A DNA stretch of 7,176 nt, taken from NCBI GenBank assembly GCA_018970625.1, contig JAGWVZ010000184.1, positions 1-7,176 on the forward strand, read 5' to 3'. This DNA is from Myxococcales bacterium. Lineage in GTDB: Bacteria; Myxococcota; Bradymonadia; REDH01. Below are positions 1 through 7,176 of this stretch, piece after piece. Numbering within the stretch: position 1 is the first letter of the stretch; each line of letters opens with the position of its first letter. Position numbers and translations under genes: made by a program. Below the pieces are notes generated by a model. The model was not told where the DNA came from. It worked only from the letters and a program-made list of their open reading frames with translations, and searched no databases.

Positions 1-53
1 CATGACCTGCGAAAGACCGGCAATATCTGACATGATAACAATCGGGAGTTGAG

Positions 54-136
54 TACCGGAGGAGGGATTCGAACCCTCACGTCCTCACAGACAACGGATT
101 TTGAGTCCGCCGCGTCTACCATTCCGCCACTCCGGC
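54..136 (-). tRNA. tRNA-Leu (anticodon CAA)
   Basis: Read on the minus strand, the sequence folds as a class II tRNA of 83 nt. The acceptor arm is GCCGGAG paired with CTCCGGT, so the first pair is a G-U wobble. The D arm contains GGCGGAATGGTAGACGC. The anticodon stem is GCGGA/TCCGT, enclosing the loop CTCAAAA with anticodon CAA. The long variable arm contains a GTC/GAC stem, as expected for leucine tRNA. The T arm is GAGGG-TTCGAAT-CCCTC. The discriminator base is A and is followed by CTC, so CCA is not encoded and must be added by the CCA-adding enzyme. It would decode UUG codons. The G1-U72 pair is slightly unusual; otherwise the gene looks intact and functional. Confidence 0.95.
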
Positions 137-564: not shown

Positions 565-1911
565 TCAGCGCACCAACATGGGCACGTGCACCGCCCTGCC
601 AAAAGGAACAGGGACTGGAAGGGTCAACAGCCAGAGCACGGGCCAGTCAGGCGGCTCGTCGGGGAACACCCCCATGCCGTCTGTCACAAAGAGCAACACG
701 TCGGGGCTTGAGTCCTGTAACGCGTTGAATACAGGTCGGAAATCAGTACCGCCGCCACCGTTCACCTCCCAGCTCTCAGGTAAAGGGTCGCACTCCGACA
801 GCATCACATCCGCTTCAATGCTCTGATCGCAGGCGATCAGCCGCACATCGTACGCGTCAAATCGACTCAGCACCTGCCGCACCAGCGTCACCACCTCGCG
901 CAGCGACTCCCACATGGAGCCCGACACATCCACCGCAATGCACGCCGTCAGCCGCTGCCCCCGAACGCTGGGCAAATACAGACCTCGGTGAATATGGCGG
1001 CGCGACGGTCGATTCCAGTCCGCCCTGCCCGATCGGGTGGGCTCCAGAAACTCCTGCAGCAGCTGGTCCCACGGCAGCAGCGGCACGTCGCCGGCCTCGC
1101 CCTCCTGCCAGGAGTGCGTCACCAGCCTGGTCATGGAAGACTCCAGCGACTCGGCGAGTGTCGTCGCCGTGGAAACGGCATCCGGATCAGGTTCCAACAT
1201 CACGTCTGGATCGCGCAACCCCTGAATATCGCGGAGCCAGGCCGGCTGTCGTCGCGCACTCGACCTTGTCGGCACGTCCATATCCTCGTCCGCAGAGTCC
1301 TCATCCGGGCCCCCGGGCTCGGGCTTGTCCCAGATGTGGCCACCGCGACGTCGGTCGATGAGCGGACGTTCGCGGATCGCCCGGCTCAGCTCGCCGTAAC
1401 CCTTCCCCAGCTCCTGGTACCAGCGCTCTGCCGCACGATGCACCGGCGGCTTCAAAAACCAGCCCCCCGCCACAGGGGTCATGCCGTGCGTCATCAGGAT
1501 ATGGTTCACCTCGAGGTCGCAGGCGATATTCCAGCGGCGCACCTCTCGGTCGGCGGCGCGAAAGCCGTGCAACAAAAGGTTATGCCAGACCTCGTGCGCA
1601 TACAGAAACGCGCATTCATCGTCGCTCAAACTTTGTAAAAACAAAGGGTTGAAGTACATTGCCACGCCGTTTGTACATGCCGTGGGCACTCGTTCGTCCA
1701 GCACTGCAAATGAGGGGTATTGCAGCAGGGCGGCAGCACACCCTGGCAACATCATCATGCACTGCGACCGCGCATGCTGAAGACGCCGGACTCCCTCTTC
1801 GAGCACCTGCATCCGTTGCAGCTCGGTCATCGGCACCGGAGCCGTTTTCGGCGCACGCTCACGGCGATCCCTCGCTACCGCGGTAGTTTTCCCGGCCTGT
1901 TTCGTGCTCAT
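565..1911 (-). CDS. VWA-domain protein with metallopeptidase-like N-terminal domain (DUF2201 family)
   Basis: This is a 448-residue, probably cytoplasmic protein; I see no signal peptide or membrane segment. The N-terminal domain (about 30-160) carries the HExxH-type motif HEVWH at 106-110, followed by H115 and the stretch WNIACDLEVN at 127-136. This is the pattern of the putative zinc metallopeptidase domain found in DUF2201 proteins. A low-complexity acidic linker follows (about 197-214). The C-terminal VWA domain (about 320-435) has an intact MIDAS: DVSGSM at 328-333, the GGGGTD threonine T389, and D411 in VTDG. In this family the domain pair acts with a MoxR ATPase, which is encoded immediately upstream. 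I chose ATG at 1911 because AAGGAGG lies 6 bases before it; a GTG at 1914 would add one residue but sits too close to that site. The start overlaps the upstream stop by one base (TGATG), implying coupling. Substrate and reaction are unknown, and catalysis is inferred from the motif alone. Confidence 0.93.
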   Translation of the reverse strand: MSTKQAGKTTAVARDRRERAPKTAPVPMTELQRMQVLEEGVRRLQHARSQCMMMLPGCAAALLQYPSFAVLDERVPTACTNGVAMYFNPLFLQSLSDDECAFLYAHEVWHNLLLHGFRAADREVRRWNIACDLEVNHILMTHGMTPVAGGWFLKPPVHRAAERWYQELGKGYGELSRAIRERPLIDRRRGGHIWDKPEPGGPDEDSADEDMDVPTRSSARRQPAWLRDIQGLRDPDVMLEPDPDAVSTATTLAESLESSMTRLVTHSWQEGEAGDVPLLPWDQLLQEFLEPTRSGRADWNRPSRRHIHRGLYLPSVRGQRLTACIAVDVSGSMWESLREVVTLVRQVLSRFDAYDVRLIACDQSIEADVMLSECDPLPESWEVNGGGGTDFRPVFNALQDSSPDVLLFVTDGMGVFPDEPPDWPVLWLLTLPVPVPFGRAVHVPMLVR

Positions 1912-3173
1912 CACCGCCCTCCTTCGACTTGCGAGCGCTGCTTCAGCCTCGCCAGTGCCTGCCGGGTTGCCGGGGAGGCCTGCGTTGCAGGAGCAGTAGA
2001 CGTCGGCTGGGCGCTGCCCTGTACGGCCGATTGCTCACCGTCGATGGTCGGAAGCTCAGGCAGCGGCTGCATGGCCCCTGACTGCGACTGAAACAACGAC
2101 GCAAACCGCGCCAGCCACTCCTGATAACCCGACAGCCGGGACATGCGATACACGAGCTTTGGTTGCCATGTGCGCAGCGCCAGCATCATGCCATACACGG
2201 CGTGATCCTCGGTCATATTCAAGAGCAGTTTCAGGAAGTTGGCCAATGCATCCGGCACGCTGCCCAACACCTGGGGTACCGTCTTCACCAGCGACGTCAG
2301 CAGCTGATGCATCTGGTCTGCCTCTTGCGGCCAGTCGTCGTAACTTCCCGTCGTGAGCAGCTCGACGATGGGAAATCGCCGAATCCGACGTCGCTCCCAC
2401 GCCCGAAAGGTCGCCGCAATGCCCGGACCGATCAGGCCGGCATACACAAGCTCGTGCATGTCCTCGTGCAGCTGCGGCAATACATGCTGCCGCATGACCG
2501 CCAGACGCTCCCACGAGCGAGGCGAGGGCCAACCGCGCTGTGCGCTGGCAGGCATGCCAAACAGGTGCTGCGGGTATTCCTCAATAAAATCGCAAACATC
2601 CTCGTCCAGCTCAACGCTGCGCGCCCACGTCACCCACGACGGCGCGTGCGCCTTCATCTCGATATGAAGGAACCGGTTGGCCAGCGCGGCCGACATCGTT
2701 GTCACCACCGACGCGTCGCTCGCCCGGTTGCCGGCACCGCACAGATACCAACCGTCTGGCACCTGATAGGTGTCGCCGAGCCGCCGATCCAGCAGCAGCT
2801 CGTACGCGGCCACCTGCACCGCACGATCTGCCGACGACAGCTCGTCGAACAGAATGATGCCGCGGCTCTGCGGGTCACGCGGCCACTCGGACGATACCAG
2901 CCAACGCACCTGGTCGCCGTCGGGCACCGGAATGCCGCGCAGGTCAACCGGTTCACGCTGCGCCAGCCGCACATCCACCAGCGGTACACCCAGCTCGTCG
3001 CACACCGACCGAAACAGCGCCGACTTGCCAATGCCGGGCGGACCCCACAGCATCAGCGGCGGCAACTGCCGCGCCAGCTCGGGTCGGGCCCACAACAGCT
3101 GCACCTGCTGCAACAGCAACGCACGAAGATCGGTCCATGTAGCCGAAGCGACATTCATTTCCTGTACTTTCAT
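1911..3173 (-). CDS. MoxR-type AAA+ ATPase
   Basis: This is a 420-residue AAA+ ATPase. Walker A is GPPGIGKS at 44-51. Walker B is IILFDEL at 106-112. Sensor 1 lies in GAGNR (N149). An arginine-finger-type ANRF sits at 165-168, and a sensor 2-like segment GWPSPRSW at 214-221 carries R219. Order and spacing fit the MoxR group, hexameric chaperone-like ATPases that work with VWA-domain partners. Residues about 230-360 form the helical lid and extension. A Gln/Ser/Ala/Thr/Pro-rich linker (about 362-400) leads to a basic tail ending KQRSQVEGGR, which might be a partner-docking segment (inference). ATG at 3173 is supported by GGGGAG 7 bases upstream. A 73-base gap separates it from the preceding operon gene, and its stop overlaps the next start. 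It could remodel a substrate or activate the VWA-metallopeptidase; the substrate is unknown. Confidence 0.95.
   Translation of the reverse strand: MKVQEMNVASATWTDLRALLLQQVQLLWARPELARQLPPLMLWGPPGIGKSALFRSVCDELGVPLVDVRLAQREPVDLRGIPVPDGDQVRWLVSSEWPRDPQSRGIILFDELSSADRAVQVAAYELLLDRRLGDTYQVPDGWYLCGAGNRASDASVVTTMSAALANRFLHIEMKAHAPSWVTWARSVELDEDVCDFIEEYPQHLFGMPASAQRGWPSPRSWERLAVMRQHVLPQLHEDMHELVYAGLIGPGIAATFRAWERRRIRRFPIVELLTTGSYDDWPQEADQMHQLLTSLVKTVPQVLGSVPDALANFLKLLLNMTEDHAVYGMMLALRTWQPKLVYRMSRLSGYQEWLARFASLFQSQSGAMQPLPELPTIDGEQSAVQGSAQPTSTAPATQASPATRQALARLKQRSQVEGGR
1918..1924 (-). promoter_or_regulatory. strong ribosome binding site inside the end of the MoxR gene
   Basis: AAGGAGG on the minus strand lies 6 bases before ATG at 1911. 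It is near-consensus and sits within the last codons of the upstream ATPase gene. It decides the start of the VWA-metallopeptidase (ATG 1911 over GTG 1914). Together with the TGATG stop/start overlap it predicts coupled production of the two partners. Confidence 0.8.
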
Positions 3174-3180
3174 AGGAACA

Positions 3181-3186
3181 CTCCCC
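3181..3186 (-). promoter_or_regulatory. ribosome binding site of the MoxR ATPase gene
   Basis: GGGGAG on the minus strand lies 7 bases before ATG 3173, an optimal spacing that supports the chosen start. Confidence 0.7.
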
Positions 3187-3195
3187 AGGGCAAAC

Positions 3196-3209
3196 CCACG
3201 ATTTCGTGG
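3196..3209. repeat. 14-bp palindrome in the operon's internal gap
   Basis: CCACGA-TT-TCGTGG is a perfect inverted repeat lying 10 bases upstream of the ribosome binding site of the ATPase gene, in the 73-base gap after the first operon gene. In RNA it would make a small tight hairpin, with 5 bp and a 4-base loop as the realistic form. It might be an mRNA processing or attenuation point or a protein site. There is no T-run, so it does not look like a Rho-independent terminator. A palindrome this short can arise by chance. Confidence 0.3.
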
Positions 3210-3246
3210 AACACAATCCAGCCACCCGCTCTCTTCACACCGCGAC

Positions 3247-5121
3247 TCAGAACAACGCGCCCACTTCCGTGTTGCTGACTGTTTCGTCGGCGAGCTGCCC
3301 GGTAGTCAGCCCAGGATCGTCAGACCCGGCATAGCTGAAACAAGGCTGTTGCGGCTTCTGCGCCAGCATCAGCACCACCGTCTGAATCAACGCTGCGCCC
3401 TGCGCAGGCTCGCCTTCCACCGGCCGCATACGAGTCAGCTCGGTCAGACACTCCGCCGCCCGACGACATCCATGGCGGTGCATGGCACCCAGGACGGTCG
3501 CTGCTGACATGCGCCACAGCGTCACTTTCACCACTTCGGCCAGCAGATCGGCCAATTCAGCCGCTTGTTGTCGTTCCGGGTGCCGCAACAACAGCGAAAC
3601 AACGAGCATCAATGCTTCGCGACCCCCCGCTTCGATGTCGCCGCGCGCCTTGCGATGACTCACCCCAAAGCCCCTGTGCCGAATCGCCGCGTGACATTGC
3701 TGCACAAAGAGCTCACGCACCAGCTGCTGCTCATCGACAGACAGACCGGCGTCCAGCATGACCAGACACAACGCGGCGAGCGACGACGGCGTGACCGACT
3801 CGCACATCGCATCCATCGCCTGCAGAGGCGCCTCGACGCCCTGCGACACGCACCGCAGCCACAGGCGAACATCGTCCGACCAGCCGCGCAAGGCCAGGTC
3901 AGCCGGAAAATCCCACCACCACGCCTGCGGGTGACCACCATGATGCAGCGCGCGCAGCGAATCCCGACGCTGCCACAGCTCGTCGCCATGCATACCCAGC
4001 TCGGCGGCGATACACATCGTGCGCAGCGCAATCCACAGGGTGGAGCGATTGCGAGTGCTGCAGGCCCAGTCGAGCACAGCGGCTGCAGTGGGCGCATGAC
4101 CCGACTCCAACAGCTGCCGAGCTTCCTCGGGTGTGCGGGGTGACAACAACAGCCGTGCGTCACCCGACATATTCGGAACCGGGCCGCCCACCACGTTCAG
4201 GTCTGTGCTGCCCAGCTGTCCGTGCAGCGACTTCAGCTCGCTGCACCCGTGCAGACCAAGCTGCACGGGGCTGCCCACATAGAGGAAGCGCACCGGGCAG
4301 TTTCGCATCGAAATCCGGTGCCAGTGACCTCGCGCCACCAGATCTTCGGCGCACAGCCCCTGAATGCGCAGGTGGCGACCGTATAGCTCGATCAGGCGTA
4401 ACTGTGGATTGTCCACGATGTGCAAGCGCTGCACGGACTCACCGACGAGCTTCGTGAACGAACAGCCCACGAACGACACGGAGGGCATCGCCTTGCGCAG
4501 CTCGACGTACGACGGGTACGTGACTCCATAGGCGGCCAATCGTCGTGCCAACGCCTTCTTTTTCAGCACGTTGGTCGTTCCGGCCCACGTTCCACCAGCG
4601 TACACCACAAGCTCCGGTGTTTCGTCGGCATAGAAGGCGGTCGCGTGGGTAATGCGAGCGTCGTCCCAGGGTGCCTCGCCAATGCGAAGGCACTCACGAA
4701 TCTCCAGCCGCGTGTCACTCTCTTCGGTGGGTAAACAGGCATCCAGCTCCTGCACCAGTCCGCTGATGTACAGTTGTCCTACCTGCGTATCCGACCACAC
4801 ACGAACCACCGCTCCCGGTCCCTCGGGCGGCACCACAAGGCGATACAGACCACCACGCTCCACCAGCCGCACGTGCAAGCCAGGCGCACACCCCGACACA
4901 TTCAGCTGCTTCACCGACGCAGGCAACAGAATGTCCACCGCCCGCAGCTCCGGCGCGAGCAGCTGCACCTCATCAACGTCTGCAGGCAGCTGCATCAGGT
5001 CCAGCCCTGTGCCTCCGTCCACCAGATCGCCCAGCTCCGCGTCTGTCAGCACCAGCCGGCGCGATCTGATCCGTTCGCCCATTCGGACGTCTTCGATTCG
5101 ATGCATTTGAGGGATTCGCAC
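3247..5121 (-). CDS. unrecognised LRR-like / helical protein, first gene of the MoxR-VWA operon
   Basis: This protein of about 624 residues belongs to no family I recognise. No signal peptide or membrane segment is evident, so it is probably cytoplasmic. The N-terminal half (about 20-320) is beta-rich, with irregular leucine-rich or solenoid-like turns. Examples are VKQLNVSGCAPGLHVRL near 70-86 and the run from VQRLHIVDNPQLRLIEL (230 onward) to LHGCSELKSL and LNVVGG (ending near 313), where short Leu/Val/Ile strands recur about every 20-22 residues. The C-terminal half (about 330-600) is rich in Ala, Leu, Arg and Trp, appears all-helical and could be a HEAT/TPR-like scaffold. A polar tail follows. 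GTG at 5121 is favoured because GGAG lies 7 bases upstream. GTG at 5154 (635 residues) has GGAG only 2 bases away, and ATG at 5106 has no clear site. Gene order suggests it is the substrate-recognition or regulatory partner of the MoxR/VWA pair; that is inference. Confidence 0.85.
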   Translation of the reverse strand: MRIPQMHRIEDVRMGERIRSRRLVLTDAELGDLVDGGTGLDLMQLPADVDEVQLLAPELRAVDILLPASVKQLNVSGCAPGLHVRLVERGGLYRLVVPPEGPGAVVRVWSDTQVGQLYISGLVQELDACLPTEESDTRLEIRECLRIGEAPWDDARITHATAFYADETPELVVYAGGTWAGTTNVLKKKALARRLAAYGVTYPSYVELRKAMPSVSFVGCSFTKLVGESVQRLHIVDNPQLRLIELYGRHLRIQGLCAEDLVARGHWHRISMRNCPVRFLYVGSPVQLGLHGCSELKSLHGQLGSTDLNVVGGPVPNMSGDARLLLSPRTPEEARQLLESGHAPTAAAVLDWACSTRNRSTLWIALRTMCIAAELGMHGDELWQRRDSLRALHHGGHPQAWWWDFPADLALRGWSDDVRLWLRCVSQGVEAPLQAMDAMCESVTPSSLAALCLVMLDAGLSVDEQQLVRELFVQQCHAAIRHRGFGVSHRKARGDIEAGGREALMLVVSLLLRHPERQQAAELADLLAEVVKVTLWRMSAATVLGAMHRHGCRRAAECLTELTRMRPVEGEPAQGAALIQTVVLMLAQKPQQPCFSYAGSDDPGLTTGQLADETVSNTEVGALF

Positions 5122-5132: not shown

Positions 5133-5224
5133 AGGCAGGGAGAGCGACACTCACAACTCCATGAACACCTGAGAGACACCGCTGCTGACCAATCTTACGA
5201 GATCTTCTGCATATTTCCGTGCCC

Positions 5225-5896: not shown

Positions 5897-5920
5897 TTAG
5901 TTGAGCCATTGAGGTGCAGT
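5538..5920. other. intergenic region upstream of the protease gene
   Basis: This stretch of about 380 bases contains the doubtful open frame described above and a locally AT-rich patch around 5790-5840, unlike the GC-rich surroundings. A consensus -35 hexamer TTGACA lies at 5844-5849, but the sequence 17 bases downstream (TCCAAC) is a poor -10 match, so a promoter for the protease gene here is only possible. I see no RNA gene or repeat. Confidence 0.4.
5911..5914 (+). promoter_or_regulatory. ribosome binding site of the protease gene
   Basis: GAGG lies 6 bases before ATG 5921, which supports that start. Confidence 0.5.
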
Positions 5921-7033
5921 ATGTGGACAGGAGTGTGGAGCGTAGCTCTGGCGTTATGTCTGTGTGTTGTGACGGGCTGCAGCGAGGAGGCGACAGAAAC
6001 CGATGACTCTGCCGTCGTTTCTGAGGCTGTGAGTACTCACGCGGCCGTGGAAGGTTCCGAATTGCTGTTGATGGAGCCTATAGAACGACTGCACGAGGTA
6101 GGCCGCACGGCAGTTTTTCGTTGCTTAGAGGGCGCCTGCGAAAGCGCAGAAGAGTACATTTTCTCAAATGGCCCAGTCGACGCTGCCTCTGCGCACTACT
6201 ATCCTGACTGGGCCTTTGCCAATGATGTGAACGACCCGGAGGCGGCTGAGCACATCCTGGGGCAAACGCGTCGTTGGCTCGAAACGCAACCGCCCGATGC
6301 CCTTGTTGAAGTCACCGTGCAGTTACGAGAGCAGCCGTTCGACTTCAGTCAGTTCGGCGGTGGTCTGTCGGACCGGGAGCGGGCAACGGTGTTTGAGCTA
6401 CGACAATCGCAGATTCGGCCGGCGCAGGATGAATTCATCGCGGCATTAGAGCGGATTGACGCCGAGGTCGTGGGTCGGGGCATGATCCTGAGTATCGTTG
6501 ATGTTCGGCTGCCTGCATCGGCGGTAATGGGATTGATGGAACTGCCACACACTCTTTATGTCGTCGGTGTTCACGAGGTCCGTAGCGACCAATTGGATGG
6601 AAGCGAACGCGAGACAGCAATGGGTGCTCAAAATAGTGTGCCTCAGGGAGAGTCCGGCGGTTTGAATGGAGGGCCGATTCGTGTTGCCGTTATTGAGGTG
6701 GACAACGACACGATCTCTCCTGTGAACACGCTCAATTCCAGCCACGTGGGCTGGCTGGACTATCCTGGGGGGCCAAGCCGCATTCGCGAAACGGATTTCT
6801 GCTCCTACAATGCTTTCGGTAACGTCGTTTGCAATAATACGGCCTCCGGTACGGCGAGTACCCATGGTACTTCGGTTGCGTCGATCCTGATGGGGAGCAT
6901 CGAACAGGGGCAGGATAGTCTATACCCAGGAGCCAACACTGCCGCGCAAAATGCTCGAAGCGGTTTGGCTCGGGAGGCCGAATTGCACTACTACCGCTGT
7001 GAGGACAATTCCAATCGGGTCCGAGTTGCTCTG
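5921..7033 (+). pseudogene. lipoprotein subtilisin-like (S8) serine protease, interrupted by an insertion sequence
   Basis: The ATG frame is open to the window edge; about 371 residues appear to belong to the protease. Residues 1-20 form a lipoprotein signal with a hydrophobic core and lipobox VTGC (Cys20), followed by an acidic stretch (SEEATETDD). The n-region lacks a positive charge, which is unusual. Residues about 125-225 resemble a protease propeptide of the inhibitor I9 type (LVEVTVQLREQPFD to LYVVGVHEV). The S8 domain begins with IRVAVIEVDND at 255-263, the position of the catalytic Asp block, although Glu259 stands where Asp is usual. The His block is HGTSVASILMG with H315, and AREAELHYYR matches the segment that follows in the family. 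The Ser block (GTSMAxP) is absent, because from about 7034 the sequence becomes the end of an insertion sequence. As cut, the enzyme cannot be active. It would act outside the cytoplasmic membrane. ATG 5921 has GAGG 6 bases upstream. Confidence 0.75.
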
Positions 7034-7176
7034 CAGGGCAATCGAGTTCTACGTGGCCTCCACCGGGACGCCAGACAGCACACGCAGCAGATAGTCGCGG
7101 TTCCGCCCCGCCTTCTTCCTCTTGTTGGCGACCCCAAGCTTGCACGTGGTCTCGATCTTCAACAGATTGGTGGCCA
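7034..7176 (-). mobile_element. end of an ISAs1-like insertion sequence, continuing beyond the window
   Basis: The transposase reading frame enters from the right edge and stops at 7049. A probable element tip starts with CAGGGCAATCG at 7034, only 15 bases past the stop. The boundary is placed where protease similarity ends and is not proven, because the other inverted repeat and the target duplication lie outside the window. If the tip is at 7034, the 8-10 bases ending at 7033 (TTGCTCTG and one or two before) would be the target duplication. Confidence 0.6.
7049..7176 (-). CDS. ISAs1-family transposase, C-terminal fragment
   Basis: Only the last 41 codons are in the window; the gene runs off the right edge. 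The frame reads ATNLLKIETTCKLGVANKRK followed by KAGRNRDYLLRVLSGVPVEAT and a TAG stop. From memory of the family, ISAs1/H-repeat transposases end in the same pattern: an (A/I)xN(I/L)L helix, then KxG, a basic KRKKA-like patch, and (N/D)R(D/N)YLxxVLxG near the C-terminus. Codons are strongly G/C-ending and gene-like, unlike the opposite strand. Transposases of this family catalyse DDE-type transposition, but the catalytic core is outside the window. Its orientation is opposite to the protease gene it appears to disrupt. Confidence 0.75.
   Translation of the reverse strand, partial: ATNLLKIETTCKLGVANKRKKAGRNRDYLLRVLSGVPVEAT

Follow-up and report, generated by a model that had tools for sequence, protein, structure and literature searches.

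The 7,176-nt window analyzed here (positions 1 to 7,176 of contig JAGWVZ010000184.1, assembly GCA_018970625.1, Myxococcales bacterium), which seems to span its entire contig, carries three consecutive genes on its minus strand, which an earlier reading of the letters alone (the sequence-only reading) had proposed as a candidate ternary system resembling the VWA-MoxR-associated (VMAP) systems. Calling of open reading frames (ORFs) together with Pfam searches confirmed the three minus-strand ORFs at the positions reported there, and the interpretation built on them is, overall, partly supported. The three-gene arrangement is far beyond chance, because homologous genes keep the same order in many distant genomes; our results show a conserved module of a protein modeled as a leucine-rich repeat (LRR)-like/alpha-solenoid (hereafter the third component), a MoxR AAA+ ATPase, and a zincin-von Willebrand factor A (vWA) protein. 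The core features are as follows.

3247-5121, minus strand: ORF of the third component, 624 amino acids (aa); the open frame extends to a GTG at 5154.
3247..5082, minus strand: probable 611-aa form of the third component; relatives start at Met14; homologous genes occur in 24 of 41 loci selected by MoxR.
4138..5025, minus strand: predicted N-terminal LRR-like beta-solenoid, residues ~20-315 of the 611-aa form.
3358..4131, minus strand: predicted C-terminal alpha-solenoid, residues ~318-575, with the best-conserved motif, W.WDFP.DL..RGW.D.RLW.
1911..3173, minus strand: MoxR-type AAA+ ATPase gene, 420 aa; Pfam AAA_5, 2.8e-7.
3181..3186, minus strand: GGGGAG, possible ribosome-binding site ahead of the MoxR gene, from sequence.
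3021..3044, minus strand: Walker A, GPPGIGKS, residues 44-51; pattern conserved in 23 of 24 aligned loci.
2838..2855, minus strand: Walker B region, ILFDEL, residues 107-112; pattern conserved in 24 of 24 aligned loci.
565..1914, minus strand: metallopeptidase and vWA protein gene, 449 aa from a GTG, with an ATG one codon later; DUF2201_N, 6.4e-27; DUF2201, 2.2e-17.
1918..1923, minus strand: AGGAGG, ribosome-binding site ahead of the vWA gene, from sequence.
1582..1596, minus strand: zinc-peptidase motif HEVWH, followed by H116; HExxH in 24 of 24 aligned loci.
916..930, minus strand: MIDAS motif (D-x-S-x-S) in the vWA domain; conserved in all 24 aligned loci.

Two relatives, P0002 and P0003, have their first residue at Met14 of the 624-aa form, which makes 5082 the probable start of the third component. 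As described in the sequence-only reading, 73 bases lie between the stop of this gene (3247) and the MoxR ATG (3173). That reading also gave the last two genes a one-base overlap and a strong ribosome site; the AGGAGG is present, whereas the overlap is one base only with the ATG start and four with the GTG start, the junction of MoxR stop and vWA start being GTGATG. A promoter scan of the window returned no sigma-70-like promoter, and its terminator-like matches were at the level of shuffled sequence.

Linkage was followed from the MoxR side by a scan with a MoxR alignment over one genome per species (84,980 species), blind to the third gene, which yielded 41 loci (L handles below; G handles denote genomes). 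By profile search, 24 of them, near copies (L018/L019/L020/L045 and L013/L016) included, have a third-protein homolog that precedes MoxR in the same orientation; 21 of these continue into the vWA gene and three (L016, L045, and L046) end inside MoxR, and a vWA profile match was found in 37 of the 41. Hosts of the trio range from Burkholderiales to planctomycete metagenome-assembled genomes (MAGs). At L036 a WYL-like gene lies between the third gene and MoxR, at L038 MoxR is split over two frames, and L034, from a MAG labelled Euryarchaeota, has a weak third-protein match (8e-7, or 1e-10 with a wider profile); L015 and L027 have too little upstream sequence for the third gene to be judged. Among 12 searched genomes of loci lacking the third gene, two have a third-protein match at another site, G779 in the form of fragments and G1115 as a full-length copy. 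The third protein is thus mostly linked to MoxR and DUF2201 genes across distant genomes, as the sequence-only reading anticipated, and its homologs are overall neither absent from such loci nor separate from them; the exceptions are the unlinked intact genes of G009 and G1115, a second copy at L014, the shortened remnants of four genomes, and those MoxR-DUF2201 loci that lack the third gene. The L014 copy (Methylonatrum kenyense, 17616-19469) lies ~5 kb behind the vWA gene of the trio, and no additional MoxR-vWA pair was found next to it. At L031 and L032 (Victivallaceae MAG) and L039 (uncultured bacterium), another large gene precedes the MoxR-DUF2201 genes; the fragment at L032 resembles, by eye, a superfamily-1 helicase in one motif. 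The MoxR-DUF2201 pair occurs without the third component on a Thermus oshimai plasmid (L003), near a UvrD-type helicase gene, and on the Synechocystis plasmid pSYSA (L005), with DUF262, DUF433, and PIN-like genes within ~6 kb.

Co-occurrence within a single family of hosts points the same way. Twelve of 201 genomes of one (Halomonas-type) family have a third-protein match, which by length is intact in eight (G001, G006, G009, G802, G852, G860, G890, and G910) and shortened or fragmentary in the other four (G779, G790, G876, and G912). DUF2201_N was found in 43 of the 201, only 11 of which match over most of the domain; the remaining genomes match ~80-130 of its 271 positions in open frames of 211-339 aa. 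All eight genomes with an intact third protein are among the 11 with a full-length DUF2201 protein (Fisher 2.9e-12 over the 201 genomes), intact meaning at least 560 aa and shortened at most 523 aa, a split set after inspection; the C terminus is missing in G876. G750, G779, and G870, which make up the rest of the 11, lack an intact match to the third protein. The MoxR and vWA genes adjoin the intact third gene in seven of the eight, with one opposite-strand gene inserted in G910, and genes that appear transposase-like by eye accompany the shortened copies in G876 and G912. When pairwise tree distances were compared among the three proteins over 24 loci, the correlations were 0.677, 0.732, and 0.705, values reached by none of 2,000 permutations each; this set omits the near copies L020, L019, and L013, the loci L073, L078, L030, and L034 (unlinked, second copy, partial, and weak), and L016, L045, and L046, which have no vWA sequence. 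The family is sparse: samples of 398 genomes from one phylum, 349 from one order, and 199 from another phylum gave one clear match each, always in the center genome, with a further weak match in the first sample and another in the second, and these counts, like that for the 201 genomes, are lower bounds, since at most three candidates per genome were scored in the 398- and 349-genome samples and six in the 201- and 199-genome samples. Short proteins with only part of DUF2201_N occur in many genomes of the Halomonas-type family; those at L026 (3584-4213) and L028 (3054-3683) lie beside a WYL-like gene.

The third component is a real protein family. No Pfam model, and Pfam includes VMAP-C, matched the 624-aa protein at an E value of ≤1, nor did any PADLOC model at that threshold. 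The sequence-only reading had called the protein LRR-like, and a good-quality AlphaFold model agrees, predicting an LRR-like beta-solenoid followed by an alpha-solenoid. Foldseek gave no match to this model at an E value of ≤0.001, and a profile search of solved structures gave matches that include one non-LRR structure at 0.018; the lack of a listing for a family or fold in such searches does not exclude that family or fold. Besides the protein itself, two relatives (74% and 25% identity) emerged from a search of 5.8 billion proteins that scored only the 7,994 candidates with the most shared words, and an alignment-based protein search recovered the same three proteins, though the alignment contained two further homologs. 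With the window protein as a query, tblastn found a weak match (E value of 2e-6) on a plasmid of Azospirillum brasilense, where a 563-aa homolog precedes a MoxR gene and a DUF2201 gene; with the Azospirillum protein as a query, the same three genes were found, close or overlapping, on a plasmid of Sphaerotilus sulfidivorans, annotated as hypothetical, MoxR, and VWA-like. Ranked by the MoxR protein, the same two plasmids again come first among 109 plasmid records, with 48-49% identity versus 27-41% for the other 38 listed. A first third-protein alignment scanned against genome contigs and viral contigs matched neither, and the MoxR alignment had no match in the viral contigs. L006 (17137-17880) and L007 (17137-17856) encode a stand-alone protein of 239-247 aa that matches only the C-terminal domain of the third component; its gene stands directly behind an ADP-ribosylglycohydrolase (ARG) gene, ~5 kb from the MoxR-DUF2201 pair.

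The other two proteins have recognizable relatives. The MoxR protein has midasin as its best profile match among solved structures (1.5e-9), a relative of it is annotated as a MoxR family ATPase, and its conserved Walker motifs are those of an AAA+ protein, in line with the engine role assigned by the sequence-only reading. PADLOC gave it weak matches only, to IetA (best, 1e-4) and BrxF (0.04), and gave the vWA protein none at an E value of ≤1; the trio corresponds to no curated PADLOC system model. The protein with DUF2201_N and DUF2201 has a predicted HExxH metallopeptidase domain N terminal to the vWA domain, and the conservation of both HExxH and MIDAS bears out the earlier proposal that HEVWH and vWA are combined in one protein. 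Its AF2 model (pLDDT, 79.2; pTM, 0.61) has a NorQD chain as the best Foldseek match. Profile matches of the peptidase domain include an M48 peptidase (6e-4) and MJ1213, a selecase (0.007), and the selecase fold matched with a root mean square deviation of 2.5 over 74 columns, a weak match (Foldseek E value of 0.068). By motif and predicted fold, the HExxH domain is probably a gluzincin-like zinc metallopeptidase.

Genes flanking the loci were clustered together with controls, namely, 20 regions chosen by hand at round coordinates from 11 of the genomes that have a third-protein match; these controls leave the other test lineages uncovered and are not matched for contig size. After the three core families, the ranking over all loci was led by a WYL-like cluster with 17 lineage groups, followed by a double-AAA ATPase with 10, a cluster with 7 whose longest members run antisense to the core, and ARG with 6; each of these four clusters occurred in none of the 20 control regions. 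Counted by hand over the 23 lineages in which the trio has some flanking sequence (that of L030, L046, and the window being too short), WYL-like genes are present in 12, the double-AAA protein in 9, and ARG or MavL in 6 (5 plus 1). One-sided Fisher values against the controls were 9e-5, 1.4e-3, and 0.017, respectively, and are optimistic because the families were chosen after they had been seen. The WYL label rests on annotation (L002), PADLOC (L008, L010, and L074), or Pfam (G001, G002, and G004), and elsewhere on homology to these; the stretches are short in L080-L082 (103-184 aa), and Pfam WYL had no match at the site in 4 of the 12 lineages (L038, L074, L080, and L081/L082). The double-AAA protein spans ~720-1130 aa. 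Pfam placed two AAA (PF00004) stretches in each of three examples, and the AAA matches are partial or split in L011, L012, and L038; the protein also occurs at MoxR-DUF2201 loci without the third gene (L017, L023, and L039). Its coordinates near the trio are as follows.

L010, 12413-14611: double-AAA protein.
L018, 2605-5181: double-AAA protein.
L002, 6800-8959: double-AAA protein.
L014, 15173-17380: double-AAA protein.
L016, 5689-7848: double-AAA protein.
L035, 4810-8190: double-AAA protein.
L079, 12369-14735: double-AAA protein.

Known defense and mobility genes lie near some loci, a neighborhood for which the sequence-only reading had suggested looking and which fits the idea of conflict: BREX-2 pglZ and brxD, Sir2, and DUF262 (GmrSD) genes in the Sphaerotilus plasmid island, type I restriction-modification genes at L080 with an N6_Mtase match at that place, and integrases (at L010, and 3 of 87 flank genes in one set). 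PADLOC tallies compared 182 of 184 flank genes (L009 9491-11776 and L025 7907-11074, both antisense to core genes, being left out) with a random 182 of 286 control genes and counted families, not proteins, from the best 25 at most. We rejected PADLOC enrichment as proof of defense, as the controls included a CRISPR locus and some of the models apparently match housekeeping proteins.

ADP-ribosyl hydrolases form a further recurrent neighborhood. ARG lies near the trio in L001, L008, L010, L014, and L029, and MavL (PF24754) takes its place in the Sphaerotilus group; the identification of ARG rests on phmmer for L001 and on Pfam for L006, L008, L010, L014, and G004, to which L029 belongs. Over 13 genomes there were 14 ARG matches (0-3 per genome, in 8 genomes, with none in G002). 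Both copies in G001 and the sole copies in G003 and G004 fall within ~12 kb of the trio, and both G009 copies lie near the MoxR-vWA pair. According to PMC10951314, those DUF4804/MavL enzymes that have been tested remove ADP-ribose linked to arginine, and DraG and ARH1, members of the unrelated ARH family, do the same. Calcineurin-like or other phosphatase genes stand beside some trio loci, and 95 flank genes include one ARPP-1 domain.

How does the trio compare with known systems? NorQD and RavA-ViaA likewise pair a MoxR AAA+ protein with a vWA partner, and NorQD is the top fold match; to our knowledge, they have no LRR-like third component and no metallopeptidase domain, and their role is in assembly or metal insertion, not conflict. 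MoxR-vWA ternary conflict systems were predicted in 2020 (eLife; PMC7159879), and features of that broad kind are found here: a MoxR AAA+ protein coupled with vWA, and a conserved third component in fixed order with congruent evolution (24 of 41 loci; correlations of 0.68-0.73). As in the VMAP systems of that text, the core genes are ordered third component, MoxR, vWA, with the third a proposed sensor. However, the window protein has no VMAP-C match and is modeled as LRR-like plus alpha-solenoid; the two N-terminal motifs given there for VMAP-type MoxR proteins precede Walker A in 0 of 24 MoxR sequences by a pattern of our own writing; and the peptidase here is N terminal to vWA with a conserved motif, whereas VMAP systems have a variable C-terminal effector. 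The conserved ternary composition that the sequence-only reading proposed stands; VMAP membership is rejected for want of a VMAP-C match and of these MoxR motifs. MoxR-vWA-iSTAND systems share a vWA component fused to peptidases and a proposed sensor as third component (PMC7159879 and PMC12839542); here the peptidase is a zincin at the N terminus, and membership was rejected on a model of beta-solenoid and then helices, with no alternating alpha/beta NTPase pattern, and the lack of a Pfam match. Membership in the beta-propeller MoxR-vWA systems was likewise rejected (bpMoxR E value of 0.13 and 11.8 bits versus a cutoff of 27; the vWA protein is DUF2201_N plus DUF2201). No FtsH-type AAA+ gene was seen in the window; the double-AAA protein near 9 of the 23 lineages could be of this type. 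ARG-centered anti-ADP-ribosylation systems with WYL, phosphatases, and vWA proteins as peptide-binding chaperones were predicted earlier (PMC9503650, section 3.8) and, as here, gather ARG, WYL, phosphatases, vWA, and defense-type nucleases in one neighborhood, but neither MoxR nor an LRR-like third component nor a metallopeptidase-vWA protein is mentioned there, ARG or MavL lies near the trio in 6 of 23 lineages only, and none is among the main ORFs of the window. Our literature search, short on subscription papers and bioRxiv, found no work joining DUF2201 with MoxR, and DUF2201 alone returned only unrelated titles; DUF2201 is absent from the main text of PMC7159879 and MoxR from that of PMC9503650, and the composition of the trio is not named in the text of either that we examined.

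We infer that the trio may recognize a target, form a complex, cleave, and act in phage defense. The LRR-like protein would bind the target, either a protein of the phage or one of the host that phage has modified (for example, ADP-ribosylated on arginine); the MoxR ring, coupled to vWA via its metal-ion site, would pull or remodel the bound protein; and the HExxH domain, on the same chain as vWA, would cut it. At loci with ADP-ribosyl hydrolases, the machine might act beside mark-removing enzymes, by analogy with the vWA chaperones proposed for ARG-centered systems. The chances that the trio is a further kind of MoxR-vWA-centered ternary conflict system seem to us evenly balanced. The fuller picture is tentative and fairly unlikely as a whole: a split machine resembling nucleotide-binding LRR (NLR) immune proteins, in which an LRR-like sensor and a separate AAA+ motor would feed phage-marked (arginine-ADP-ribosylated) proteins to a vWA-borne zinc protease, with mark-erasing hydrolases and a WYL-like product-sensing regulator alongside.

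Several observations weigh against a conflict system. Correlated tree distances are also expected from shared host ancestry, and host relatedness contributes to them. The third gene is missing ahead of MoxR at 15 of the 41 MoxR-selected loci (L006, L007, L017, L023, L024, L026, L028, L031, L032, and L039-L044); in G1115 a full-length copy has no MoxR or vWA gene within ~8 kb and probably lies ~30 kb from the pair, its contig being equal in length to that of the pair, and in Marinospirillum minutulum (G009) an intact one lies ~20 kb from it. The main ORFs of the window include no defense or ADP-ribose genes. The neighbor families were picked after inspection, and defense islands collect unrelated systems. 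Of 13 genomes searched with the Pfam WYL model, only three (G001, G002, and G004) have a match within ~12 kb of the trio, and G009 has one beside the MoxR-vWA pair; the WYL-like genes of G006, G802, G860, G890, and G910 are not among its matches. N6-methylase genes are common in G860 (seven matches), and the PADLOC tallies yield no enrichment figure, with a type I-E CRISPR locus in one control set. ARG lies >30 kb off or on another contig in four of the eight ARG-bearing genomes (G006, G802, G890, and G910), and 17 of the 23 lineages have neither ARG nor MavL in the available flanks.

Characterized MoxR-vWA pairs are mostly assembly chaperones, and the trio could be a dedicated maturation chaperone, not a defense system, with the LRR-like protein as an adaptor and the HExxH domain as a maturation peptidase, in the way that NorQD and CoxDE insert metal. 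The NorQD match of the vWA protein agrees with this, and cleavage could serve to mature a client; respiratory and metal enzymes, however, are absent from the top recurrent neighbors, where WYL-like, double-AAA, antisense, and ARG clusters rank first, and the patchy distribution (one clear match, as a lower bound, in each of the 398-, 349-, and 199-genome samples) and the shortened third-gene copies, some with transposase-like genes, speak against it, so that we regard it as unlikely. Another account makes the trio the chaperone/protease arm of ARG-centered systems, binding and clearing ADP-ribosylated, misfolded host proteins rather than sensing phage. The hydrolases near six lineages, the phosphatases, the ARPP-1 domain, and the vWA chaperones predicted in section 3.8 of PMC9503650 all suit it, as does the placement of every ARG copy within ~12 kb of the trio or the MoxR-vWA pair in four genomes (G001, G003, G004, and G009). 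The 17 lineages lacking ARG or MavL and the four genomes with distant ARG genes count against this arm as well, and the Sphaerotilus island carries a Sir2 gene, whereas the published systems are defined by the absence of a coupled ADP-ribosyltransferase or sirtuin; we think it possible but rather improbable.

Finally, the MoxR-DUF2201 pair might be of general use and the first protein a passenger. Pairs without a third protein beside them (such as L003, L005, L006/L007, and L026/L028), the intact unlinked copies in G009 and G1115, and the C-terminal domain alone beside an ARG gene (L006/L007) would fit. The co-occurrence in eight of eight genomes, the fixed order and strand, and the distance correlation disfavor this account, and the unlinked cases still carry a MoxR-vWA pair in the same genome; we rejected it as very improbable. 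Were the trio a MoxR-vWA ternary conflict system, its compact three-gene form, with a well-folding predicted sensor and its own conserved peptidase motif, would make a far easier test case than the large VMAP systems, and the hydrolase neighbors, from two unrelated families whose known members are arginine specific, offer a direct route to testing predicted bacterial answers to phage ADP-ribosylation.

Two other features flank the operon in the window, and tRNA genes frequently flank islands.

53-136, minus strand: tRNA-Leu (CAA), directly downstream of the operon.
5909-7174, plus strand: partial divergent gene upstream of the trio, with weak S8 protease similarity over residues 310-373 only (E value of 0.03).

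Past residue 373, the sequence of the divergent gene appears not to be that of a subtilase and is perhaps out of frame. Elsewhere, SbcC/SbcD-like pairs occur near the trio in three lineages (L008 14597-15847, L011 3015-7711, and L029 13603-17836), with Pfam SbcD_C matches in L011 and L029.

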